Source: Candidatus Aminicenantota bacterium
GTDB taxonomy: Bacteria > Acidobacteriota > Aminicenantia > Aminicenantales > Aminicenantaceae
NCBI GenBank assembly: GCA_011049545.1
Contig: DRHQ01000091.1
Coordinates: forward strand, 1-64,000
Direction of reading: 5' to 3'
Length of the DNA: 64,000 bases
The notes beneath the pieces were generated by a model. The model searched no databases and had not been told where the DNA came from. It saw only the letters and a list, made by a program, of their open reading frames with translations. A program made the position numbers and the translations under genes. This document shows, piece after piece, positions 20,378 through 34,111 of the stretch (position 1 is its first letter; each line of letters begins with the position of its first letter).

Positions 20378-20403
20378 TTATTTCGTCAATGTTCCTCTAA
20401 AAC
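20378..20403. other. attL core: TTATTTCGTCAATGTTCCTCTAAAAC
   Basis: Identical to 33465-33490. Confidence 0.9.
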
Positions 20404-20687
20404 AATTTTGGGGGTATTTGCTATTCTTTTATTATCAGCTATTTACTTTGGATATCAATAACTTACATAAATTTTTAATTAACACTGTTTAACATGATTT
20501 CGCATGTTTTTCTATGCTTTTGGTCATAATTTGGTCATAAAAAGATTACTTAAAAGTCGTCATTTTTAGGTCACTTTCTAGTTGACAAAACTAAATTGAA
20601 TTAATATTCTTGAAGTATAAAAATCAGAAAAGTTGGGGAAAATTAAAATTTGATATTTTCCTCAAAAATAAAAAAGGAGAAATGATA

Positions 20688-22013
20688 ATGTCTAGGTGGG
20701 ATGATGATTTTAAAAACCATCAAATTCACAATAATCTTCAATCTGTCAGTAATTTATTAAAAGAAATAAAAAATTTTGATGATCAAGATCCTGAAATTTT
20801 TGAAGAAATAGATAGATTAAACCAAATTATAAGATATGTTCCAATTGTCTTTGGTAAGGTGGATCCCGTTATGATTCCTCTAAAGATAATCGATGAATTA
20901 AATCAAATTATAATAAATATTACTGGTGATTTAAATAATTATAAAAATACGAAAGATAGGGCCCAATTGATAAACGCAAATGGGAGGGCTGAAAATTTGC
21001 TAGTGAAAATTTCGAATTTAATCATTCCATCAGATTATGCGGACATTAAAGGTGTTCGCGAGGCGACTTCATCTCTCCGAAAATCAGTTGGCCAATATAT
21101 TAGAAATATAAAAAATGAGGAAAATAATTTTAAAAAAGGAATAAAAGGATTTGAAGGTAAAACTAATGAATTAAGCGCTACTATTGATAATCAGAAAACA
21201 AGGCTCGATGAAGCAATAACTCAATTCCAACAGCAGTTTTCACAGGCTGAAGAACAACGAAGAGGACAATTTACGCAATCTCAAGAAAAGTGGACTCAAG
21301 AATTTACTGTGGCAGTTGAAAAAAGAAAAACTGAATTTACACAAGAGCAAGAAGATCTTAAACGGGCCCAGGGAGAATTTATAAACGAAATAAACAATAA
21401 GAAAGATAGCTTTGAGAATGAATTGAAAACCAAAAATGAACAGTTTATCAAGGAATTATCTGCAAAAGTAGAGAGTTATATTAAAAAATTTGAGGACTAT
21501 AAAAAACGTGCCCAAGAATTAGTTCATGTAATCGCTGATACAGGAATGGTTGGGGGATATCAAGAATTTGCAAATAAAGAAAGAAAGGCTGCCCTATTGT
21601 GGAAAATCGTTGCAGTTTTGTCTTTTATGGGATTAATTGGTTTTGCTATAGTCGCTTTTTATATTGTTCTACAAGGCGAAATTAAATGGCCTTTAGTTGC
21701 CGGAAGAGTATTTGTTGCCTCCACGTTTGGCGTATTGGGTGCATATGCGGCAAGATTGGCTGATAGGCACGAAGAAAAAGAAAAAATAAATAGGAGAATG
21801 GAACTAGAATTAGCATCTATAGATCCGTATTTAGTCGGCCTTCCCGAAGAAGTTATACATAAATTAAAGGCGTCATTGGCAGAGAGGCTTTTTGGGGGTA
21901 AAGAACCTATCAAAATTAAGAAAAAAGAAGAGATTTCTGGAACTTCTTTTGATTTAGTAAAGCAGCTTGTAGAAACGTTGAGAGATTTAATCAAAAAGGG
22001 TGAGCCCAGCTAA
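20688..22013 (+). CDS. Coiled-coil protein with two C-terminal TM helices (element accessory gene)
   Basis: Long Gln/Glu/Lys-rich heptad region (FQQQFSQAEEQRRGQFTQSQEKWTQEF), TM segments IVAVLSFMGLIGFAIVAFYIVL and WPLVAGRVFVASTFGVLGAYAARLA; start chosen behind AAGGAG. Confidence 0.7.
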   Translation: MSRWDDDFKNHQIHNNLQSVSNLLKEIKNFDDQDPEIFEEIDRLNQIIRYVPIVFGKVDPVMIPLKIIDELNQIIINITGDLNNYKNTKDRAQLINANGRAENLLVKISNLIIPSDYADIKGVREATSSLRKSVGQYIRNIKNEENNFKKGIKGFEGKTNELSATIDNQKTRLDEAITQFQQQFSQAEEQRRGQFTQSQEKWTQEFTVAVEKRKTEFTQEQEDLKRAQGEFINEINNKKDSFENELKTKNEQFIKELSAKVESYIKKFEDYKKRAQELVHVIADTGMVGGYQEFANKERKAALLWKIVAVLSFMGLIGFAIVAFYIVLQGEIKWPLVAGRVFVASTFGVLGAYAARLADRHEEKEKINRRMELELASIDPYLVGLPEEVIHKLKASLAERLFGGKEPIKIKKKEEISGTSFDLVKQLVETLRDLIKKGEPS

Positions 22014-22023
22014 AGTTGGGATT

Positions 22024-22317
22024 TTATTTATTATATTTTGGTTTTTCTTTCTTAATAATTTTCTTTTCTTCTCTGCGAGCTTGATCAATTGATTTAAACT
22101 GTTTTGTTTGAAATTGTCGGGCTCCTTTAATAGGATCTTTTCCTCCTAGCAAGTGCTCTTTTAGACGATCATCAACTCTGCCAAGTTTTGCTATGCCCGT
22201 GTAAAGATTTGTTTCCCCTGCATTCTTCAGTTTATAGACAATTGGCTTGTTTTTGAGAATTTTCTCAATGTTTTTCTTACTAAAGTTTCGTTTTGGCGAG
22301 AATTTTTTAGTTCCCAT
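22024..22317 (-). CDS. Small stand-alone GIY-YIG-like nuclease domain protein
   Basis: PIVYKLKNAGETNLYTGIAKLGRVDDRLKEHLLGG...EEKKIIKKEKPKYN pattern. Confidence 0.65.
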   Translation of the reverse strand: MGTKKFSPKRNFSKKNIEKILKNKPIVYKLKNAGETNLYTGIAKLGRVDDRLKEHLLGGKDPIKGARQFQTKQFKSIDQARREEKKIIKKEKPKYNK

Positions 22318-22350
22318 AGATCACATCTCCTTTTGTAATTGAATGATTTA

Positions 22351-23268
22351 TTATTTTGTTAAAATTGAATTTCTAATAACAGAAGATGCACTTTCTATAA
22401 AAGCTTTTTGAGCATCTTTAATAGAAAATGGGGATAAATCTCTTATTTCTTCATGGATATTATCAAGCCAATAAAGATATATTTCCATTGAGTTTTCCCA
22501 ATCTGGGTGTAATGATATCTCTTTATTCTCCTTATTCCATATAATCAAATTTTTCCTTTTTAAATAATCAAATAGTATCAATAAATCCTCTTGATCAAGA
22601 TGAAAGTGTCTTGAAATAACACTATATTTGATTTTTTTGTCTTTTCCTGAATCAACTAAAAATTTAACGATCCTTATAGATATTTTGAATATACCGGAGA
22701 GCTCCACTAGATCTTTGGCTGGAAGAAAATTAGCGGGGGGGACATAAATATCTTCAGCATATTTTTTCACGCTTTCTAAGACCCTTTCAGCCTCTAAAAG
22801 AAAACCGCTTATTTTCATGGGCAAGAAATAAATATCTCCTTCTTTAGAATGTGATGTTTTCGGGATATTAAATTTTTTGTCATATCTTGAAACTATTTGA
22901 TATTGTTCGGGCCTATTAGGATGATTTCTCTCAAAATAAATCCTTCTTCCTTTTTGACCTGTTATCTCATAATATGATTTTAAGGTTTCCTTCCAATTTC
23001 GATTTAAGTGCTTATTAAGAGGAAAAAGTCTATAGTTACTGTTTTTTTTGATATTTGAATTATGGAAGGCCAACCAAGAAAGGAAAAAGTTGTCTTTATC
23101 TATACGCGCTTTTTTATCCTTTCCCTTTATAAAATGATAGAGACACGAAGCACAATGACATTTATACGAATGAGTCTTCCCTTCTTTTAAATCGCGATAA
23201 ATCTTCTTCAAAGTTTCAAGTGTCACAATTTTCTTCTTTGAATTGAGCACTATATTTTGTTGTCTCAT
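22351..23268 (-). CDS. Hypothetical protein (element accessory gene), Cys/His cluster near N-terminus
   Basis: 305-aa ORF; YKCHCASCLYHF; no family recognised. Confidence 0.55.
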   Translation of the reverse strand: MRQQNIVLNSKKKIVTLETLKKIYRDLKEGKTHSYKCHCASCLYHFIKGKDKKARIDKDNFFLSWLAFHNSNIKKNSNYRLFPLNKHLNRNWKETLKSYYEITGQKGRRIYFERNHPNRPEQYQIVSRYDKKFNIPKTSHSKEGDIYFLPMKISGFLLEAERVLESVKKYAEDIYVPPANFLPAKDLVELSGIFKISIRIVKFLVDSGKDKKIKYSVISRHFHLDQEDLLILFDYLKRKNLIIWNKENKEISLHPDWENSMEIYLYWLDNIHEEIRDLSPFSIKDAQKAFIESASSVIRNSILTK

Positions 23269-23320
23269 TTATGATACATCCAAAATATGGGAAAATCAAG
23301 ATTAATAACGGAGGCGAATA

Positions 23321-23512
23321 TTGTTTAATCGAATCAAAGCTTATCGGTTTTTAAAGAATAAAACCCAGGATGATTTGATGACTCAAACCAGAATTGACCA
23401 ATCAAGAATATCAAGAATTGAAAGGGGTATTCTTAAACCTACGGATGAAGAGAAGCAAAAATTAGCTAAAGCCCTTAAAACAACGGAAGGGGAACTCTTC
23501 AGAAAAAATTAA
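23321..23512 (+). CDS. Xre/Cro-type HTH regulator
   Basis: AYRFLKNKTQDDLMTQTRIDQSRISRIERGILKPTDEEKQKLAKAL; TTG start. Confidence 0.8.
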   Translation: MFNRIKAYRFLKNKTQDDLMTQTRIDQSRISRIERGILKPTDEEKQKLAKALKTTEGELFRKN

Positions 23513-23516
23513 GAAA

Positions 23517-23729
23517 TTGGAAAAAAGGTTTTTGACGCTTACGGAAACTTCTGAATATATGAATCTGTCTGCAAGTCTTTTATATAAGCTGGTTGAGGCT
23601 AAGCAGATTCCTCATACCAGGATTGGCCGGAAGATTCTTTTTGATCGTCAAAAACTTGAGAAATACATCGATGAGAATAGTTTTGGGGTCGAAGATTGGG
23701 ATGAAAAAGCTAAGGAGATGTTGGAATGA
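23517..23729 (+). CDS. Excisionase-type (MerR-like) HTH protein
   Basis: FLTLTETSEYMNLSASLLYKLVEAKQIPHTRIGRKILFDRQKLEKYI. Confidence 0.8.
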   Translation: MEKRFLTLTETSEYMNLSASLLYKLVEAKQIPHTRIGRKILFDRQKLEKYIDENSFGVEDWDEKAKEMLE

Positions 23730-23822
23730 AAAGTAAAACATTTGGGCGGCGGGGTTGTGGTGGTTTGGTAGTCCCTTCCATTATGATCTTTGCTGCCCTT
23801 CTTATAAAAAGGGACGGAATCA

Positions 23823-24305
23823 TTGGAAAGCAAAACTCGCAATGAGAAAGCATATAAGCCGAAGAAGCCATTTCAGGCGGTCGAAGGAATTGGGACTCCG
23901 CCCTGGAGAAAATTAGATATGGGTGCAATTGGAATCTTTATGGAATTTTATAACAAATTTAATGGGTTTAATCGATATAATCTTTCGCTCACCTATCGAG
24001 AGGTTAATAAAAAGATGTCCTCTTTAATCTTTACGCGGTTTCTTTGGCAGCTCATAGGCTTTGGATTCCTTGATATAAGAAGGACAGGCCGATTGATGAG
24101 AAATTGTTCCCTGTACGGGATCAGCAACCGTTGGAGAGAACTCAACACAGAGCCAGAAAAATTAATCAAAATCGAACAACTTCTCAAACAAATTAAGCTT
24201 TTAATGAGGAAACCCGGAAGCCAAAAGAAAAGGATGGAAATATGGAAACTGCGGAATAAGATTTTGAAATTAGGGAAGCATCCGCAGATTAAGCATGTCC
24301 AGTAG
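23823..24305 (+). CDS. Hypothetical, possible winged-helix DNA-binding protein
   Basis: 160-aa ORF in the early-gene position, immediately upstream of the palindrome cluster. Confidence 0.5.
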   Translation: MESKTRNEKAYKPKKPFQAVEGIGTPPWRKLDMGAIGIFMEFYNKFNGFNRYNLSLTYREVNKKMSSLIFTRFLWQLIGFGFLDIRRTGRLMRNCSLYGISNRWRELNTEPEKLIKIEQLLKQIKLLMRKPGSQKKRMEIWKLRNKILKLGKHPQIKHVQ

Positions 24306-24326
24306 ATGGTAAATATATATAAAGGT

Positions 24327-24426
24327 TATCACGTGGTGATATTAAGAATAAGGAAGTTTTGTCACGTGGTAACGCTGTTAAGGGAATATTTTATCACGTG
24401 GTGACAAAATTTTATCACAGTGTGAT
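24327..24426. promoter_or_regulatory. Four palindromic TATCACGTGGTGATA-like sites
   Basis: Cores TCACGTG at 24329, 24362 and 24394, and TCACAGTGTGA at 24415; spacings 33, 32 and 21 bp. Confidence 0.7.
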
Positions 24427-24622
24427 GCTGAAAATATTGTTTGGTGAAATGATGATAAATCAAAAACGCACTCATGCCTCTTCGATGCTTAAAGTGGGAT
24501 TCTCTGGCCTCCAGGGGAAGGTAGTTGACATAATAGATATTCTGCGACACAAAGTTATTGCAAATAAACAGGTTATACCAGTGGGATATTATTCTCGGGA
24601 AAGCAGGGAAAAGCTGAGATTT

Positions 24623-24734
24623 TGTCCCATTATGGGTCATATACGGGCATTATTTCCCATTTCGAGGTCAATTTCAGGCAATTTTAGACTGCTTTGTCCT
24701 ATTAATAAAAGGACACTGATGGGACATTTGTCCC
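24623..24734. promoter_or_regulatory. Three TGTCCY...RGGACA-type palindromes upstream of the PC4-like gene
   Basis: TGTCCCATTATGGGTCA (24623-24639), TGTCCT-N9-AGGACA (24695-24715), GGGACATTTGTCCC (24721-24734). Confidence 0.6.
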
Positions 24735-24752
24735 GTCATGGTGAGGTGAATC

Positions 24753-25034
24753 ATGGACATTTATGAGATTGATAAGAACAGCATGGAGAAGATCAGGATA
24801 GCCCTGACTGAATTTAAAGGCCATAGACTCCTGGATATCAGAGTTTATTACGATGCATCAGAGACAAGAACTCCTGACTTCAAGCCTACAAAGAAAGGCA
24901 TAACAATCCCTATTGACTTGGTGAGAGAGGTGAAAGAGGGCATTGACAAGGCGCTGGCTGAAATAGAGTCCGAGACAGGGCCGGAATCAGGCGAGAATGG
25001 TCTAGAGAGGCCCCAGGGGGCAAGATCAGGATAG
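24753..25034 (+). CDS. PC4/p15-like ssDNA-binding protein
   Basis: KIRIALTEFKGHRLLDIRVYYDASETRTPDFKPTKKGITIPIDLVREVKEGIDKAL matches the PC4 pattern. Confidence 0.7.
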   Translation: MDIYEIDKNSMEKIRIALTEFKGHRLLDIRVYYDASETRTPDFKPTKKGITIPIDLVREVKEGIDKALAEIESETGPESGENGLERPQGARSG

Positions 25035-25051
25035 GGGTAAGGCAAGGTGTT

Positions 25052-25492
25052 ATGGACAAGCTAAAAAAGACAGATAAAAGACGGATACGACACAGGCATG
25101 GAGGTTACACATATTTGACCACTGGAGAGTTACCAGAGTATCGGCAATATATCAAAAAATACCTGACTGACGTCCGAGAAGGCATGATTAAAGACATAGG
25201 CCCAGAAGAGAAGGACTTGACGACTGCGCAGATCATTCTCGTTGATAGGCTGATATCGCTTCTGGGTGTGATTAGGCTGATTGAGGAGAAGGCAAAGGAA
25301 GACGGAGTTTTCAGAGGGCGAGACTTAATTCCAAGTCTCAAGGCTTCTTATATTGCATATAACAACACAGTGAGGTTGACGCTTGAGAAGCTGGGGATAG
25401 ACAAGAGAATGGGAGATCGAGTCCTTACACCATTGGAGATAGCGACTGAATTTGATAAGGAGAAGAAGGCAAGGGAGAAGAAAAATGAATGA
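25052..25492 (+). CDS. Hypothetical phage protein, possible small terminase subunit
   Basis: 146-aa helical protein two genes upstream of TerL; positional inference only. Confidence 0.4.
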   Translation: MDKLKKTDKRRIRHRHGGYTYLTTGELPEYRQYIKKYLTDVREGMIKDIGPEEKDLTTAQIILVDRLISLLGVIRLIEEKAKEDGVFRGRDLIPSLKASYIAYNNTVRLTLEKLGIDKRMGDRVLTPLEIATEFDKEKKAREKKNE

Positions 25493-26030
25493 GACACTAA
25501 AAACTTTCGATTATATCTATGAGGAAAGCAAGGAAGGAAACACTATCAAAGTGTTCCGATTCATAATCCAGAAAGATGAAGGTCAGGTTTTTATCCGCAT
25601 AGAGGAATATGGGTCACCAGGAGGCAAGCCGGGTCCTTTTATGTGCAAAGGTTTGCGTGGACTCAATCTAAAGCCTGAGATTTTGCCAGATATGATCTCG
25701 GCTCTTAGGAAAATAATCTCCAGGATATCAAAAAAAGAGTCCAATATAATAGAGAAAAGCAAGCGCATCCTGATTTTCGATGCAGGTGCTTACGGATCAG
25801 CAGCGGTTCGGCCGTTTACGATTAGGTTCCAAGACTACCCTTCAAGAGGACCCTCTGTCATAATAAAACGGCAACAAAAGGACTCGAATTTACCCGCTTG
25901 CCAGCAAGAATGGCATAGTCTGCAGTCCGATCGTAGTACCGGGAGAGCCAGAATACCTATCAATGTATTGCCTAAATTTATCGACGCTCTGCAGCAGGCC
26001 CAGGAAATCTTAGAGGAGATAGAAAAATGA
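25485..26030 (+). CDS. Hypothetical, possible tandem PC4/PUR-like fold
   Basis: Two strand-rich halves, each ending in an amphipathic helix (KPEILPDMISALRKIIS and PINVLPKFIDALQQAQEIL). Confidence 0.45.
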   Translation: MNETLKTFDYIYEESKEGNTIKVFRFIIQKDEGQVFIRIEEYGSPGGKPGPFMCKGLRGLNLKPEILPDMISALRKIISRISKKESNIIEKSKRILIFDAGAYGSAAVRPFTIRFQDYPSRGPSVIIKRQQKDSNLPACQQEWHSLQSDRSTGRARIPINVLPKFIDALQQAQEILEEIEK

Positions 26031-27481
26031 ATATCATCGAAGCGCTGCATGGCGATAATTGCTTCAAGCCTCTATTCAAGGATATAGAGACCTGGCACTC
26101 ATGGGAGGTCTATCTTCAAGCGCTGTTCGGTCTGCCGATTGAGGACAAGAAGGACAGGAAGTTATTCAAGAGCTGCACAGGACTAAAGTCTCACGCAGGC
26201 AAACAGGTGAAGGAGTCATTTGTCATCTGCGGCCGGCGATCAGGCAAGAGTTTTGTCTCTTCAATCATCGCTGTTTACATAGCGACGTTTAAGGACTGGT
26301 CTAGGTTCCTGAGTCCCGGAGAGCGGGGATACATCTTCATAATAGCCAATGATAAGAGCCAGGCGCGGATTGTCAAAAATTATGTGTCAGGCATTCTCAA
26401 AAGTCAGGCGAGTTTTCAACGGCTGGTCTCAAAGGACTTGACATGGGAAGTAGAGCTAAAAAATCAGGTCTCGATCATGGTCAAGACCGCATCTTTCAGG
26501 ACTCTTAGAGGCTATACTTTACTGGCAGCTATCCTTGAAGAGATCGCCTTCTGGCGCAGTGAGGAGTCGGCAAATCCTGACAAAGAGATCTTGGCTGCCG
26601 TGAGGCCGTCGTTGGCCACGATTCCCGACTCGCTTTTGATTGGCATAAGTACGCCTTATTCGAGAGCTGGTGTTCTCTTTGAGATGTGGAAGAAGCACTA
26701 CGGAAAGTCTGGAGGGCCTTTAATTTGGAAGGCAAAAACAACTAGCATGAACCCTACGATTGACACTCAGATTATCCAAGATGCGTTGAAAGACGATCCG
26801 AGCGCTGCCCGGGCTGAATGGGAAGCTGAATTTAGAACAGACATTGAGGCTTTTTTGCCTCCTGAGGTTATCGAAGTTGTTGTCATTCCTGGACGCTATG
26901 AGTTGCCTAAAATTAAGGATTGCAAATACTCTGCCTTTGCCGATCCCAGTGGCGGAAGGCAGGACTCTTTCACTTTGGGAATTGCGCACAAGGATAAAGA
27001 CGGCAAGATTGTCCTGGACGTTCTTAGAGAGCGACGGCCGCCATTTCAGCCTAAAGTCGTTGTCTCGGAATTCTCAGAGACTTTAAAAGCCTATGGAATC
27101 ACTCAGATTGAGTCGGATCGATATGCCGGCGAGTGGGTTACTGAGGCTTTTCGTGATCATGGCATTCGGGTTAAAAATAGCGAGTTATCAGCATCAGAAA
27201 TTTATCTCTCTTTCCTTCCTTTAATTGCAAACGGGACTATTGAGCTACTGGATAACAAGAGGCTCAAGGCGCAGCTGGCGGGCTTGGAGAGAAAGACAAG
27301 GTCTGGCGGTAAGGACTCAATCACTCATTATCCCGGCGGTCATGATGACCTGGCAAACGCGGCGGCCGGTGCTTGTGTTATGACTTCCAAGCCAAAAATT
27401 AGTCCCAGGATATGGCGGGTGGATGATTCAAGGCGAGGCTTTGGAGGCTTTAAGGAGACGCCCAAACCTGGATTTAGATAA
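26027..27481 (+). CDS. terL: Phage terminase large subunit
   Basis: FVICGRRSGKSFVSSIIAVYIA (Walker A), LLAAILEEIAFWR (Walker B), FADPSGGRQDSFTLGIAH and HYPGGHDDLANAAAGA (nuclease acidic residues). Confidence 0.9.
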   Translation: MNIIEALHGDNCFKPLFKDIETWHSWEVYLQALFGLPIEDKKDRKLFKSCTGLKSHAGKQVKESFVICGRRSGKSFVSSIIAVYIATFKDWSRFLSPGERGYIFIIANDKSQARIVKNYVSGILKSQASFQRLVSKDLTWEVELKNQVSIMVKTASFRTLRGYTLLAAILEEIAFWRSEESANPDKEILAAVRPSLATIPDSLLIGISTPYSRAGVLFEMWKKHYGKSGGPLIWKAKTTSMNPTIDTQIIQDALKDDPSAARAEWEAEFRTDIEAFLPPEVIEVVVIPGRYELPKIKDCKYSAFADPSGGRQDSFTLGIAHKDKDGKIVLDVLRERRPPFQPKVVVSEFSETLKAYGITQIESDRYAGEWVTEAFRDHGIRVKNSELSASEIYLSFLPLIANGTIELLDNKRLKAQLAGLERKTRSGGKDSITHYPGGHDDLANAAAGACVMTSKPKISPRIWRVDDSRRGFGGFKETPKPGFR

Positions 27482-27493
27482 GGAGGTAAAGAA

Positions 27494-28090
27494 ATGGAGA
27501 AGAAAGAATTTTTATTCGATATCAAAAAGCTGTCGGACGATGGCGAGCTTTCGGGCTACGCAGCTGTGTTCGGAATTGTCGACTTAGGTGGTGACATAAT
27601 CGAGCGTGGCGCATTTAAACAAACGATCAAGGAGCATGATGGCGTTTTTCCGATGACCTGGTATCACGATGTGCGAGATCCGATCGGCGCGGTTAAAGTG
27701 CGCGAAGATGAACATGGATTATTTATAAAAGGGCGATTAAATCTTGCTGTGCAGTCGGCTAAAGAGAAGCATGCGCTTATGAAACAAGGTGTCATAAAGG
27801 CCCTCTCCTTTGGGTTTGATACCGTGAAACATGAATGGGATGAGATAGGCAAGCAAACGATAAGACATTTGAAAGAAGTTAAACTCTATGAGGTGGCGCC
27901 CGTTCTTTTTCCGATGCAGCTACAGGCGCAGATCACAGATGTTAAATCGTTCGAGGATGGCTCGGTTGGTGCGACGTTCAATACATCCGGACCTTATGCG
28001 GCGATCATAAAAACGCTCAGCGAGATGAATGCGGCATTGAAGAAAGACGAGAAGAGCGATAAGAAAGAGCCGCTCAGGCTCGTCTATTGA
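27494..28090 (+). CDS. HK97-family prohead protease
   Basis: GYAAVFGIVDLGGDIIERGAFKQTI, MTWYHDVRDPIGAV, IKALSFGFDT, LKEVKLYEVAPVLFPMQ. Confidence 0.9.
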   Translation: MEKKEFLFDIKKLSDDGELSGYAAVFGIVDLGGDIIERGAFKQTIKEHDGVFPMTWYHDVRDPIGAVKVREDEHGLFIKGRLNLAVQSAKEKHALMKQGVIKALSFGFDTVKHEWDEIGKQTIRHLKEVKLYEVAPVLFPMQLQAQITDVKSFEDGSVGATFNTSGPYAAIIKTLSEMNAALKKDEKSDKKEPLRLVY

Positions 28091-28105
28091 ACGAGAACGG
28101 AGGCA

Positions 28106-28486
28106 ATGAAAATGGTTAAAGTTAAAAGAAAATCTAAGGCCGAACGCGCAGGCTGGGAGGCATTGAAGCGCAAATTAGCAGATGAACGGCCACGCGAGGG
28201 TCGCGGGCTATGTGCCGCTTTGGGCATAAACCCGTTTAAGACGACTTTGTTAGGGCGCTGGGGGCGGCCAATGCGCCCTGTTGTGTTAAAAAGAAAAGGC
28301 GCAAAAGACAAGGAGATGATCTCGCTCACGGTCATGAAAAGCTGCTATGTGCCGGACGGGACAGAAAAATTCCCCGACCTCAGAGTAAGCCTGAATGCGG
28401 GAACTACTTATAGTATCCCCGTTTCCGTGGCTGAAGTGTTACTTAAAAAGAGATTGGCCGTGAGACGCAAGACGACCAGAATATAA
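28106..28486 (+). CDS. Hypothetical element protein
   Basis: 126-aa ORF collinear with the packaging genes. Confidence 0.55.
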   Translation: MKMVKVKRKSKAERAGWEALKRKLADERPREGRGLCAALGINPFKTTLLGRWGRPMRPVVLKRKGAKDKEMISLTVMKSCYVPDGTEKFPDLRVSLNAGTTYSIPVSVAEVLLKKRLAVRRKTTRI

Positions 28487-28501
28487 AAGGAGGTAAAACA
28501 A

Positions 28502-29080
28502 ATGAAAAACGTTGAAGCCTACAGGCGCTTGGCTAAAAAAGTCGCCGATTATAATCTCAGAGAGCTTAGCGGAGAGCTAAAGGAGGCGCAGAGAAAACAA
28601 AACACGCTTGAAGAGGAAGCTTTAAAGGCTGAAATTTTGGAAGATAAGAATTGGGAAGCAAAGAGGGATGAGGCGAGGCAAAACCGCGAGAAAGTCGATG
28701 CGATTAAAAAGAAAATCGATGTAAGCAAAGAGGCTGCTGGAATTCTACAGGAGCAACAGCAAAAGATTAGCAGGGCGGCAAAGAAAGAGGTGGAGGCGGA
28801 GTATCGGCCTGCCTTCGAGGCAAAAGCCAGGGAGCTGTTGAAGAAGGCGCGAGAGACGGAGAAAGTGGAATTGGAGCTCGAGCAGATCATAGGAGAAGCA
28901 AATAGTTTATGCAAAGAGCTTGATTCTCATTCGCCACATGCAATTGCGCTTGAGTCTATCATTTTTCATTCTCTCCGTCTCATCGCACACGGAGGTTATG
29001 GTCAGCGCGGCGAACTCTGCGATAGCCCTTTAATGAAATTTATAGAGGATTGCAAAGAGGCAGGCATCAAGATTGACTGA
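28502..29080 (+). CDS. Coiled-coil hypothetical element protein
   Basis: 192-aa heptad-rich ORF preceded by AAAGGAGG. Confidence 0.6.
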   Translation: MKNVEAYRRLAKKVADYNLRELSGELKEAQRKQNTLEEEALKAEILEDKNWEAKRDEARQNREKVDAIKKKIDVSKEAAGILQEQQQKISRAAKKEVEAEYRPAFEAKARELLKKARETEKVELELEQIIGEANSLCKELDSHSPHAIALESIIFHSLRLIAHGGYGQRGELCDSPLMKFIEDCKEAGIKID

Positions 29081-29501
29081 GTTTTATTACAAAGAGATCA
29101 CCGACGACGAGGTCGATGCGCCGAAACTCGCGCGTGCGAAGTATGTGCTGGCGTATTGCCAAAAGGTCCTTTCGCTTTCTATGATCATTATCAAGTGGTG
29201 CGTTGAGATCGACAAAGCGACCTACGATAGCTGCGGTAAAAGTCCATTCGGCGAGGTGGTTAAAACGCTTAAGGGAATGAACGTGTGGCGAGAGGAGTTT
29301 GACGGCATGACGAAGTTGGTGAGCCAAAGAAACGTTATTTGGATTCGGGCCGATATCCCGGTTGATATGATCACTGAGACTGTAGCGCATGAGTGCAAAC
29401 ATGTTAGTGATTTTGCCCGTTATGGGATATTCAATAAGCAAGAAGAGGAAAGAAGGGCGGATAACTTTGGCCGGAAAGTAATGAGAGAGATCTGGGAATG
29501 A
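29073..29501 (+). CDS. Putative zinc metalloprotease-like (HExxH) protein
   Basis: ITETVAHECKHVSDFARYG contains HECKH. Confidence 0.55.
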   Translation: MTEFYYKEITDDEVDAPKLARAKYVLAYCQKVLSLSMIIIKWCVEIDKATYDSCGKSPFGEVVKTLKGMNVWREEFDGMTKLVSQRNVIWIRADIPVDMITETVAHECKHVSDFARYGIFNKQEEERRADNFGRKVMREIWE

Positions 29502-29588
29502 ATAAAATTTTGGAGGTTTAAATGACAATCCTACCGCTAAAAGTCAATCTCTCCCCAGAGAGAAAGAAGGGAAAATTTTCCCCTTTTA

Positions 29589-29783
29589 TCAATCAATTCT
29601 CCCGTTTCCGTAAATGTTGTTATTTTCAATGAACTCTTCGACATCGCTTTCAGGAATCAAAAACTGTTTCCCGACCCATATGCATTTTTTGAATTTCCCT
29701 TTTTTTATATACATGCGGATTGTCGGGATGCCGCATCTCAGAATCTCGGCCACCTCCGCGGTTGTCAGTAGTTTATCCTTCAT
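29589..29783 (-). CDS. Excisionase-type HTH protein (second copy)
   Basis: MKDKLLTTAEVAEILRCGIPTIRMYIKKGKFKKCIWVGKQFLIPESDVEEFIE; start trimmed from the longer ORF to the ATG with an RBS. Confidence 0.75.
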   Translation of the reverse strand: MKDKLLTTAEVAEILRCGIPTIRMYIKKGKFKKCIWVGKQFLIPESDVEEFIENNNIYGNGRID

Positions 29784-29850
29784 TTCCATCGCTCCAAAAA
29801 TGCACATGATACAGGAATCCACCATGGTCGTGTCAAGCAGAAATTTGGAT

Positions 29851-29880
29851 GGGTAGGGGTTTGATAAATCAAACCCACAG
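29851..29880. repeat. REP-like palindrome GTAGGGGTTTGATAAATCAAACCCACAG inside the element
   Basis: Same family as the arrays at 3787-3925 and 12448-12784. Confidence 0.75.
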
Positions 29881-30120
29881 ATGGCAAAGGTTCTCAAATT
29901 GAGAAGCTGATAAAAAGCCAGCGAGTCAAAAGAATATCAAAAGCGTGAAATCACGCCTTTGAAAAAAGACTGGGGCGACTAAGGAGGTATGATTCATAAA
30001 CCTGTAAATAAAATTTTACGGATTCTCCTTCTTCAAGAAAAAGTAGCCTGTCCCCATTTTTTGAAAACAAAGACTTGACAATAGTCATCATTTTTTCTAT
30101 ATTAACTTAGAGAGGCGAAC

Positions 30121-30312
30121 ATGGAAGATAAGTTAATCGAAGATTTAAAACAGGTCCTGGAAGAGAAAAAGTTATCAGCGATCACTGCTGCTATGTTTAT
30201 CGAGGCTACCCCGAGGCAAGTCTATCGCTGGCTGAAATATGAGAATAGGCCGACTTTAATCTTCAGGAAAGCGATCAAACGAGGCATCGAGAGGATGAAA
30301 AAGCTGCCATAG
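30121..30312 (+). CDS. Small HTH protein
   Basis: LSAITAAMFIEATPRQVYRWLKYENRPTLIFRKAIKRGIERM. Confidence 0.6.
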   Translation: MEDKLIEDLKQVLEEKKLSAITAAMFIEATPRQVYRWLKYENRPTLIFRKAIKRGIERMKKLP

Positions 30313-30403
30313 GGGGAAGATGACACATACAAATACCATTAGTGGCATTGAGGTCGTCGCTCTATGGCGGTCTGAGAGGCTTGTTTATCAGGGGAGGTGA
30401 GAA

Positions 30404-30697
30404 ATGACCAGAATTAAGTCCCCGCTTCATCCAAATATCGTAGTTCCGAAAGGTAAGTTCTGCGATTTGGGAATAGAGGCACAGGAAATAATAACCGCAC
30501 ACGCAGAAATCATCGTTAAAAAGATGGGAACGGGCAGTGAAGAGTTAGAAGGAGACCCCGTCAAGGCCACCATCGAACTGTTGGAGAAGGGGCTTCTGCG
30601 TATCGTTCATGTCGAGGAGTCTGGAGGAATTATCTTCGAACTTTTTAATTTTGAGACTGGGCAGTATGTTCAGCTTCGTCCCCAAACAGAACATTGA
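30404..30697 (+). CDS. Hypothetical element protein
   Basis: 97-aa ORF preceded by GGGGAGGTGAG. Confidence 0.5.
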   Translation: MTRIKSPLHPNIVVPKGKFCDLGIEAQEIITAHAEIIVKKMGTGSEELEGDPVKATIELLEKGLLRIVHVEESGGIIFELFNFETGQYVQLRPQTEH

Positions 30698-30710
30698 GAG
30701 GAGATGAGAA

Positions 30711-30935
30711 ATGATCAAAAAAACCATAAAAACTGAGATGTATTTCCCGGTCAAAATTAAATACGATAGAAAGACTAATTGTTATGCTTCAATCTGCCCT
30801 TCTCTGGGTGTGGCGTCTCAAGGCAAAACCGAAAAAGAGGCAGAGACCAATATAAAAGAAGCCCTTGAATTATTCATCGTCGCTTATTTGGAGATAAATT
30901 TAAAAGTTAAAATTCCTTCGCCTTTTTTAAGGTGA
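30711..30935 (+). CDS. HicB-like protein
   Basis: FPVKIKYDRKTNCYASICPSLGVASQGKTEKEAETNIKEALELFI. Confidence 0.7.
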   Translation: MIKKTIKTEMYFPVKIKYDRKTNCYASICPSLGVASQGKTEKEAETNIKEALELFIVAYLEINLKVKIPSPFLR

Positions 30936-30953
30936 AAAAGGAGGCAATAAATA

Positions 30954-31154
30954 ATGAAAGAAAAAAACCAGACCAGCATGGAGGCCAAAGACCTAACCGA
31001 AAAACTCGTATTCGACATGGGAATGGAGCTTCTCAAACCAGTGATCAACAACCATCAGGACGAGTTGGATGAACTCCTAAAAAAGCGGATCGACGATTCG
31101 ATAACAAACAAAGAGATTTTTGACCGGCTCATCGAATTGAAAAAAGAGACATGA
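30954..31154 (+). CDS. Hypothetical element protein
   Basis: 66-aa ORF with RBS AAGGAGG. Confidence 0.45.
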   Translation: MKEKNQTSMEAKDLTEKLVFDMGMELLKPVINNHQDELDELLKKRIDDSITNKEIFDRLIELKKET

Positions 31155-31409
31155 ATGTTAAAGAAAAAAGGGCCGATGACTCGGAAGCCAGTCGACCCGA
31201 AGCGCAAAGCCAAAGCCAAGCGCCTTTTGGATTCTAAACAACTTCTAAGCGAAAATCAAGAAATCCTATTGAAATTCGACAAGAACCATCCAGGCATGAC
31301 GTTAGATGAGACCGATGCGGTCCTGACTTTTGTTCGCTGGCTGGAGGATAAAGATTATATCATTTTTGATGCGAAAAGGATGGTCAGAATGAGGCTTGAG
31401 GTCGGCTAA
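31155..31409 (+). CDS. Hypothetical element protein
   Basis: 84-aa ORF abutting the upstream stop. Confidence 0.45.
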   Translation: MLKKKGPMTRKPVDPKRKAKAKRLLDSKQLLSENQEILLKFDKNHPGMTLDETDAVLTFVRWLEDKDYIIFDAKRMVRMRLEVG

Positions 31410-31426
31410 GAAAAATGGAGGTTAAG

Positions 31427-31720
31427 ATGAAAAAATCATCAGAACTTAAAATGAGAGGCGAATCAATAACGTCTCTTTTCTTTACTGAAAAAAAGCCTCT
31501 GTTCATTGTCGCTGGAAAAAGTTGGCGAGGTGATCTGGATGATGAGATCGGAATCAAAACGAGCGAACTTCAATTTCGGCTTGAGATCCATTTGTCCAGG
31601 GAGAACCTGAAAAGGCTTTCTATTGTGATTCAAGAGCGATTAAAGGACAACGTTGAATCGGCGGTTTTTTCGCAGAACAGAAAACTTCATTTGAATCTAA
31701 AAAAAGCTGAATCTGCTTGA
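31427..31720 (+). CDS. Hypothetical element protein
   Basis: ORF with TGGAGG RBS before ATG at 31427. Confidence 0.45.
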   Translation: MKKSSELKMRGESITSLFFTEKKPLFIVAGKSWRGDLDDEIGIKTSELQFRLEIHLSRENLKRLSIVIQERLKDNVESAVFSQNRKLHLNLKKAESA

Positions 31721-31799
31721 TTCTTCCACCAGGGCCAGGCGAGATCCTGGCCTGAAATAGAGGGATTAAACAATAATAAAAAATAAAAGGAGGTAGATT

Positions 31800-32357
31800 A
31801 TGAAAGGGTGGATATTGGCAAATATAATGTCGCTGTTGAACCTTTTAGCTTTAATTGCAATTTCTATCTTTGGAAGGAATTGGGTAAATAAAAAAAATGA
31901 GGAAATAAAATCTCTTTATTCTAAGGAACAATTCATTCATAAGCTTCAATTTGAAAAAGAATTCAAGATATATTTAAACTTATGGGAAAAATTAATTAGT
32001 TTAAAAAATTCGGCTGAATTAGTTACTCTCCATGATGCCCTTAAAACGAAGGGAGAGCATAAAAAAGAAATTGAAGGCCAAATAATTATAAAGTTAATAG
32101 ACGATATTAATAATGTTAAAAGAACGACTGAGAACAATAGACCTTTTTATGATGAAGAGATTTATAATAATGCTTTAAAAATTATAGAATCAACAAAAAC
32201 TTTTGTTGGCCGTTCTGAAGATCTTGGAAAAGAAAAAATTGAACATCTTTTAAAATTAGTTAAAAGTGAAAGTCAAATTTATAAAATAATTGACTCTATA
32301 GAAAAAGCTATTCGCAAACGAATTCGTAATATTGGGGAAGCAAAACTGATTGGATAA
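31800..32357 (+). CDS. Hypothetical protein with one N-terminal TM helix
   Basis: NIMSLLNLLALIAISIFG TM segment; RBS AAAGGAGG. Confidence 0.55.
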   Translation: MKGWILANIMSLLNLLALIAISIFGRNWVNKKNEEIKSLYSKEQFIHKLQFEKEFKIYLNLWEKLISLKNSAELVTLHDALKTKGEHKKEIEGQIIIKLIDDINNVKRTTENNRPFYDEEIYNNALKIIESTKTFVGRSEDLGKEKIEHLLKLVKSESQIYKIIDSIEKAIRKRIRNIGEAKLIG

Positions 32358-32389
32358 TCTACCAACTTATGAATAAATAGAGGTGAATC

Positions 32390-33463
32390 ATGGGAGTTTA
32401 TAAAGTCAAAGATAAATATTACATCGATTTTTATACCGATGGCAGGCGGATCCGGAAGCCCGTTGGCAGCAAAAGGGATGCTGAAAATGCTCTGGCCGCT
32501 GTAAAGGCCGATATTCTGAGGGGAGAGTATAGATTCAAGGGCAGAGTTAGGATCAGATTTGATGATTTTGCTGAAGAATATCTTGAATATCTCAAGGTCA
32601 ATAAAAAATCGTGGCATAGAAACAAGGCAAGCCTAAAGAGTCTCATACCTCATTTTAAGGAAATGCTACTCTCGAAAATAACACCAGCACATATTGAAGA
32701 GTATAAGAGAAAAAGATTATATGAAGATAAGGTGCAACCTAGCACAATTAACCGTGACCTAGCCTGTTTAAGGCATATGTTTAATATTGCAAAAAAGCTC
32801 AAGGATTATGATGGCGAGAATCCAGTCAAAGATGTTGATTTTTTCCAAGAAAGACAGTATGTGATGAAAATTCTTGATAAAGAAGAGTCAGACCGATTAA
32901 TCAACGAAGCAAAAGATTATCTGAAACCGATGATTATTGTGGCCTTAAATACAGGCATGAGAAGGGGAGAGCTCTTTAACTTGCGCTGGAATGATGTCGA
33001 TTTTGCAGAGCATTATATTTTTGTAAAAAAGACAAAATCCGGATTTATGAGAAAAATCCCGATGAATGATTTAGTGGCCGAGACCTTAAAGAACATTAAG
33101 CGAGAAAATGAATTTGTTTTCTGTAATCCAAAAACAAAAGACCGCCTTGCGTGTATTCAAAGGCCATTTAAGGCTGCGTGTAGGAAGGCCGCCGTTCCTG
33201 ATCTCAGGTTCCACGATTTGCGGCATACATCAGCAACATACATGGTAACTGGAGGAGTAGATCTGGCAACAGTATCGCAGATTTTAGGACACAGCGATAT
33301 TAAAATGACAATGAAATATGCTCACCCGACACCTGAGAATAAAAGGAATGCTGTCAATGTTTTGGCATCGGTTTTCGGCCCTGGGGAGAAAAAAGAAGTA
33401 GCCACAATCCGGTCACAAGAGCCAAAGAAGAAAGAGGTAAGCCCTTTATTATCAAATAATTAG
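32390..33463 (+). CDS. int: Tyrosine recombinase / phage integrase
   Basis: ALNTGMRRGELFNLRWNDVDF, FHDLRHTSATYMVTGGVDLATVSQILGHSDIKMTMKYAH (R...HxxR...H...Y). Confidence 0.95.
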   Translation: MGVYKVKDKYYIDFYTDGRRIRKPVGSKRDAENALAAVKADILRGEYRFKGRVRIRFDDFAEEYLEYLKVNKKSWHRNKASLKSLIPHFKEMLLSKITPAHIEEYKRKRLYEDKVQPSTINRDLACLRHMFNIAKKLKDYDGENPVKDVDFFQERQYVMKILDKEESDRLINEAKDYLKPMIIVALNTGMRRGELFNLRWNDVDFAEHYIFVKKTKSGFMRKIPMNDLVAETLKNIKRENEFVFCNPKTKDRLACIQRPFKAACRKAAVPDLRFHDLRHTSATYMVTGGVDLATVSQILGHSDIKMTMKYAHPTPENKRNAVNVLASVFGPGEKKEVATIRSQEPKKKEVSPLLSNN

Positions 33464-33464
33464 A

Positions 33465-33490
33465 TTATTTCGTCAATGTTCCTCTAAAAC
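33465..33490. other. attR core, overlapping the 3' end of the rlpA-like gene
   Basis: Identical 26 bp to 20378-20403; covers the last codons (VLEEH*) of the gene ending at 33473. Confidence 0.9.
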
Positions 33491-34111
33491 GTTAGTTCTA
33501 TAACCCTGTTTCATGAGTTTTTTGGCGATTTTTTCTGCTGATTTCACGCTGCGCGCCTTGATTCTTACCCTGTAATAAGTATTAGAAGAAATTTTTATCT
33601 TCGAGATGTAGACATTCCTGTAGTTTTTCTGGAGTTTCCGTTTGAGGATTTTGGCGTTTTTTTTGATGCTAAATGATCCAACCTGAATAGAAAATTTCTG
33701 TGAAGATTTTTTGGGAGAGTATTTTTTCAGCACCTTAATCTTAACAGGTGCAACTCCTGAAATATCCAAGCCCAGCTTCTTTGCGCCGGCATAAGAAAGG
33801 TCGATGATTCGTCCCTTTATAAAAGGACCGCGATCGTTTATGCGCACTACAACTGATTTTCCGTTATTTAGATTTGTAACCCTGACATAAACTCCGAAGG
33901 GCAGAGTCTTATGCGCCGCTGTCAAAGCGTGCATATTATAAATCTCTCTATTTGAAGTGAGCTTTCCATGAAAGTCAGATCCATACCAGGAAGCAATACC
34001 TTTTTGGACATTCCCAGAACGGAAATAAGTTTGCCCTGCGCAGGATGTCAGAAGGATGACTGAACAAAGAATGAACAACAACCTCAACTTTTTAGATAGG
34101 ATATCGGACAT
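33473..34111 (-). CDS. rlpA: RlpA-like lipoprotein with SPOR domain
   Basis: Lipobox [63 protein letters not shown]-terminal SPOR repeat. Confidence 0.85.

Follow-up and report, generated by a model that had tools for sequence, protein, structure and literature searches.

Does the block of three genes between the left attachment site and the regulatory switch of an integrated element from a Candidatus Aminicenantota bacterium represent a single anti-phage cassette, or do its genes belong to different parts of the element? The initial annotation of this DNA had grouped them as accessory cargo, with a role in defense put forward as a hypothesis. The window, i.e., the whole stretch of 64,000 nucleotides that was analyzed, contains an integrated element of 13.1 kb (20378-33490) with a perfect 26-bp direct repeat at both ends. 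Profile matches revealed genes for a terminase large subunit and a prohead protease, while no portal, capsid, or tail genes were recognized among the scanned element proteins; the element is likely satellite-like. Literature searches for satellites in Acidobacteriota found nothing. The relevant features are as follows.

20378-20403, unstranded: attL core, a 26-bp perfect direct repeat of attR
20582-20610, plus strand: predicted sigma-70-like promoter of the coiled-coil gene, TTGACA-17-TATTCT, with 10 of 12 consensus bases and a perfect -35 box, in a region where the chance rate of such matches is high
20688-22013, plus strand: 441-residue coiled-coil protein with a C-terminal hairpin of two transmembrane (TM) helices, of a rare family linked to restriction-modification (RM) loci
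22005-22020, plus strand: terminator-like hairpin between the convergent genes, with a fold z-score of only -1.35
22024-22317, minus strand: 97-residue stand-alone GIY-YIG nuclease domain (PF01541, 24.3 bits against a cut-off of 22.6)
22351-23268, minus strand: 305-residue switch protein, with a predicted MarR-like winged helix and a CHCASC motif at residues 37-42
23321-23512, plus strand: XRE/Cro-type helix-turn-helix (HTH) protein (PF01381), divergent from the 305-residue gene
23517-23729, plus strand: excisionase-like HTH_17 protein (PF12728)
32390-33463, plus strand: tyrosine integrase of the element (PF00589), at its right end
33465-33490, unstranded: attR core, a 26-bp perfect direct repeat of attL

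All three reading frames were found where the initial annotation had placed them, flanked by the 26-bp repeat on one side and the XRE HTH/excisionase pair (23321-23729) on the other, and those of the coiled-coil and 305-residue proteins are real genes, supported by homologues elsewhere. The coiled-coil gene is convergent with the other two, and the three genes do not constitute one transcription unit. We favor, with some confidence, a reading in which two things abut here: the 305-residue protein would be part of the element's control switch, and the coiled-coil/2-TM and GIY-YIG genes would be exchangeable cargo, of which the coiled-coil protein is likely linked to defense.

The 305-residue protein and the control switch

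Homologues of the 305-residue protein were detected in genome G007 (L014), from another genus of the same family, with 30% identity over 263 residues, and in G337 (L066), from another family of the same order, with 34% identity over 300 residues. The G007 gene is divergent from an HTH gene and an excisionase-like gene, the latter 63% identical to that of the window. The G337 gene is divergent from an HTH homologue, beyond which come an excisionase-like HTH gene, a gene for an AAA protein, and terminase-subunit homologues. Position and orientation relative to the XRE HTH and excisionase-like genes are the same in three of three homologues, from three genomes of one order, and neither the coiled-coil nor the GIY-YIG gene is present beside the homologues of G007 and G337. 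Searches of phages, plasmids, and viral contigs with this protein gave no match. Because it recurs at control switches of related elements in which the other two genes are missing, the earlier description of the protein as accessory is not supported, and the conserved gene order argues strongly that it belongs to the switch as a core gene.

In a single-sequence model, residues 184-253 are predicted to adopt a helix-helix-helix-strand-strand arrangement, and residues 192-265 fold with pLDDT blocks of 65-89; the full-length model is otherwise unreliable (mean, 41.8), the local winged-helix region being confident without an alignment. A Foldseek search with this model returned MarR-family regulators almost throughout (best E value, 1.8e-3), and a profile of the three homologues gave as its top PDB match the transcriptional regulator 3bro (E value, 0.025; positions 189-245). 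The E values of the MarR-type matches, 0.002-0.03, are marginal singly, and there was no Pfam match; these marginal winged-helix signals agree with each other and with the position of the gene. We consider it likely that the protein is a winged-helix DNA-binding protein. The sequence YKCHCASC is present as originally read, with only C37 and C42 invariant in the homologues. A zinc finger was rejected because the complete Cys/His set is not conserved (C39 is missing in G007), and this partial conservation makes any zinc site doubtful.

Most likely, the 305-residue protein would work from the promoter region that its gene shares with the divergent Cro-like HTH/excisionase genes, either as a repressor or as a sensor, and would take the place held by CI in lambdoid phages and by Stl in staphylococcal islands. 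That it is specifically a repressor we rate at even chances; an inverted-repeat operator was sought between the switch genes, and none was found. Like the 305-residue protein, Stl of the SaPIs is a large, modular protein whose gene diverges from that of a small regulator in the switch of the element (PMC6695447). The HTH of Stl is N-terminal, whereas the winged helix predicted here lies in the C-terminal half; the two are likened by layout, and homology is not claimed.

Two other readings bear on this assignment. If all three genes formed one anti-phage cassette, made up of a membrane effector, a nuclease, and a sensor, their adjacency and shared AT richness (30-33% GC, against 40% for the element) would be accounted for, as would the spacing of the 305-residue and GIY-YIG genes, which lie 33 bp apart on the same strand and probably form an operon. 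However, the switch HTH gene is equally AT rich (33% GC), switch-linked homologues of the 305-residue protein in other genomes lack the other two genes, and the coiled-coil family recurs without the 305-residue and GIY-YIG genes. Elsewhere, no two of these genes were found side by side, contrary to the original proposal of a co-occurring cassette, and we regard the single-cassette reading as very improbable. A better but still unlikely alternative is that the 305-residue protein is a replication protein or an antirepressor instead of a repressor: winged helices also occur in initiators, and the N-terminal 180 residues of the protein have no recognizable fold in the model, but its gene is divergent to the Cro-like gene, and the replication-type AAA_25 protein of L066 is encoded on the other strand.

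A variable slot beside the attachment-site arm

Three further features define the region between the 305-residue gene and the left end of the element.

20414-20540, unstranded: integrase-arm-like region, whose 127 bp are conserved at one end of the related L014 element (1483-1609)
20541-22350, unstranded: variable cargo slot, filled in the window but missing in G007, where the regulator adjoins the att arm
20553-20577, unstranded: second arm-like motif, AAAGTCGTCATTTTTAGGTCACTTT, shared with the G032:C71 element (local score, 39)

The ungapped local alignment of the arm-like region with its L014 counterpart scores 139, whereas none of 500 shuffles exceeded 29. Two TTTGGTCATAA repeats occur within the region, at 20519 and 20530, and an identical arm repeat is present in the sister element of the host genome (G000:C115). 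The L014 block begins one base after the stop codon of the G007 regulator; because it directly abuts the regulator, the 1.8 kb occupied in the window by the GIY-YIG gene and by the coiled-coil gene and its promoter is missing in G007. Since about 50 C-terminal residues are absent from the G007 regulator, this empty slot may reflect a deletion and not the ancestral state. The slot holds two small unknown proteins and a DUF2158 protein, by a tRNA, in G337, three unknown proteins in G032 (C71), and a DUF3800 protein in the sister element of the host genome (G000:C115). Gene content varies between conserved flanks across several related elements, as is the mark of a hotspot, and the coiled-coil and GIY-YIG genes are, judged from these comparisons, very probably exchangeable cargo. 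The earlier notion of variable cargo at the attL end is upheld for these two genes and fails for the 305-residue gene, which recurs at control switches.

P2/P4-like hotspots are loci of 1-5 kb between two conserved mobile-element genes that turn over fast and carry anti-phage systems, and one of them, in Vibrionaceae, lies between a cI repressor and an integrase (PMC9122126). The window slot resembles these hotspots as a small variable locus in a mobile element, but it belongs to an Acidobacteriota element, is located between the regulator and the att arm, and carries other cargo families. Further defense genes could be sought in such att-arm slots of phage-like elements from Acidobacteriota, in the way that the P2/P4 hotspots were mined.

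A rare coiled-coil membrane protein family with relatives at RM loci

A GGAG 8 bases ahead of position 20688, together with homologues starting with MS.W, supports this position as the start of the coiled-coil gene. The coiled coil and two TM helices of the initial annotation were borne out by hydropathy peaks at about residues 310 and 336, with equivalents in five of five relatives tested, and by an AlphaFold model, of low confidence (mean, 56.4), showing a single helix at 117-283 and a helical hairpin at 291-376; the best-predicted part is an N-terminal helical head (residues 1-110). A Foldseek search with this model returned nothing significant, and the family is unnamed in the Pfam, NCBIfam, and PADLOC profile libraries.

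Whole-genome searches produced dozens of weak matches to the coiled-coil stalk only, which were discarded, and full-length matches alone were kept. Nine loci of the family were found, the window included. Full-length relatives, with about 20-30% identity, occur on a Vibrio plasmid and two Geobacillus-group plasmids, in Thermolongibacillus, in another Bacillota genome, and in two further Acidobacteriota genomes; a relative in Microcystis phage yong1 covers 55% of the protein. By this measure, only 3 of 396 sampled Acidobacteriota genomes (counting that of the window) and 2 of 399 Bacillota genomes (counting that of the query) contain the family. Scans of viral contigs with each of the three attL-end proteins and with alignments found no true relative, and one DNA-pattern match in these contigs was a chance match in a capsid-type gene.

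Several known families were compared and rejected. The SLATT 2-TM effectors share with this family two TM helices followed by a helical tail, and SLATT_1 gave weak subthreshold matches in three relatives. The window protein itself, however, did not match SLATT (PF18181), the E values of relatives (0.013 and 0.048) did not reach the cut-off, and the profile-profile comparison by hhalign (E value, 0.016) was no better than the reversed SLATT control (0.022) or an unrelated TM protein (0.0097). PADLOC matches to ZorA and LeoBC were mostly confined to the coiled coil, with none for the TM domain alone, and the element holds no ZorB or dynamin-like neighbor. Matches to exonuclease VII, apolipoprotein, and OmpH were below cut-offs and represent coiled-coil artifacts.

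The gene of the Vibrio homologue is embedded in a type I RM operon, where it is flanked by hsdS and a DUF4268/hsdR pair and overlaps the end of hsdS by 8 bp. A second homologue overlaps by 4 bp a type ISP enzyme (1193 bits to the PADLOC type IIG model), and a third overlaps by 1 bp a methylase-Mrr fusion. A fourth follows, at about 135 bp, a protein with a subthreshold match to PDDEXK_7 (PD-(D/E)XK-like nuclease), and a fifth precedes by 169 bp a protein matching a TIR effector model (E value, 4e-8). Two near-identical copies on the Geobacillus-group plasmids are transposase-flanked orphans with no defense neighbor, and the yong1 copy is near phage regulators and recombinases. The RM linkage rests on few loci, since nine were found and two of these are the orphan plasmid copies, and no RM enzyme adjoins the coiled-coil gene of the window. 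Type I RM (hsd) operons that harbor accessory genes are familiar, e.g., those with the R-linked ORFs of Campylobacter. The Vibrio homologue is comparable to these ORFs by its position, as an unknown gene in an hsd operon; unlike them, the family is also associated with type ISP and methylase-Mrr systems.

The gene overlaps suggest a physical partnership between proteins of this family and RM enzymes, and a defense-linked role for the coiled-coil protein appears somewhat more probable than its absence. We infer that the C-terminal helical hairpin anchors the protein in the inner membrane with both ends cytoplasmic, from where a coiled-coil stalk, about 170 residues and roughly 25 nm long, would carry the N-terminal head into the cytoplasm. 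Because relatives overlap RM genes, we propose that the protein is most likely a membrane-tethered partner or effector of DNA-targeting defense. The simplest mechanism would be to keep a nuclease at the membrane, the site of phage DNA entry; alternatively, the protein could be a membrane effector that responds to phage or is triggered by restriction.

The stand-alone GIY-YIG protein

The GIY-YIG-like domain originally noted in the 97-residue protein scores above the curated Pfam cut-off, and the motif residues Y28, Y39, R51, H55, E84, and N96 are all present in an alignment to the UvrC N-domain; by its sequence, the protein is an intact minimal nuclease domain. It shares with the N-terminal GIY-YIG domain of UvrC the catalytic residues and the domain size, and it differs in standing alone, without the UvrC partner domains; the similarity is too weak to argue for ancestry. 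No relatives were found in 93 other genomes of the order, carriers of related elements included. A PPR match was dismissed as a repeat artifact.

In a conflict between phage and satellite, the GIY-YIG nuclease Odn of phage ICP1 acts against the phage's satellite (PMC8263062). The window protein could plausibly be a local nuclease partner of the coiled-coil protein or a nuclease directed against helper or competing phages, though we hold a defense role for it to be doubtful. The pairing is a guess, against which count the convergent genes, the terminator-like hairpin between them, and the lack of a GIY-YIG relative in the rest of the order. The defense hypothesis has real support for one gene only, the coiled-coil/2-TM gene, whose homologues reside in RM operons, beside a nuclease, and beside a TIR-like gene.

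Both cargo proteins might have nothing to do with defense. GIY-YIG domains are common in homing enzymes and in repair, and the gene follows the regulator in an apparent transcription unit and may be controlled by the switch, which would suit a selfish homing-type nuclease or a factor that processes the element's DNA, e.g., in replication or packaging; the gene is, however, in a variable slot and has no relative in the 93 other genomes, and we give this reading about the same low standing as a defensive one. The coiled-coil protein could be a lysogenic-conversion or housekeeping membrane scaffold traveling with mobile DNA, as the orphan plasmid copies, the copy beside the yong1 regulator and recombinase genes, and the generic nature of coiled-coil 2-TM layouts would allow. 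Reading-frame overlaps with three unrelated kinds of RM genes are not expected by chance, and a scaffold seems distinctly less probable than the defense-linked role preferred here.

A wider proposal, which we offer as speculation with the odds well against it, is that the coiled-coil/2-TM proteins are an unrecognized membrane-tethered module used by several unrelated RM types, phages, and satellites, placing DNA cleavage at the membrane or triggering a membrane response upon restriction; in the window, the module would be paired with a stand-alone GIY-YIG nuclease that replaces the RM enzyme. A rare, unnamed membrane protein family tied to several RM types in distant phyla raises the question of whether restriction is organized at the membrane.

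Further observations on the element and its relatives

An RlpA-like lipoprotein gene (33473-34111, minus strand) carries attR at its 3' end, which is apparently where the element integrates. Palindromes of the TTATCACGTGGTGA type are clustered at 24320-24425, a short stretch ahead of the terminase genes, and are possibly an operator or a replication origin. The element also encodes a HicB-like antitoxin protein (30711-30935), for which a HicA partner was not recognized. The sister element G000:C115 (L070 4662-11814) is a second, shorter related element with a 41-bp perfect terminal repeat and an integrase 66% identical to that of the window. Terminase-bearing related elements are present in the same bacterial family at L072 (G013:C31), L069 (G032:C71), and L067 (G013:C44), one of which has a tmRNA gene nearby and a terminase gene split into two frames.
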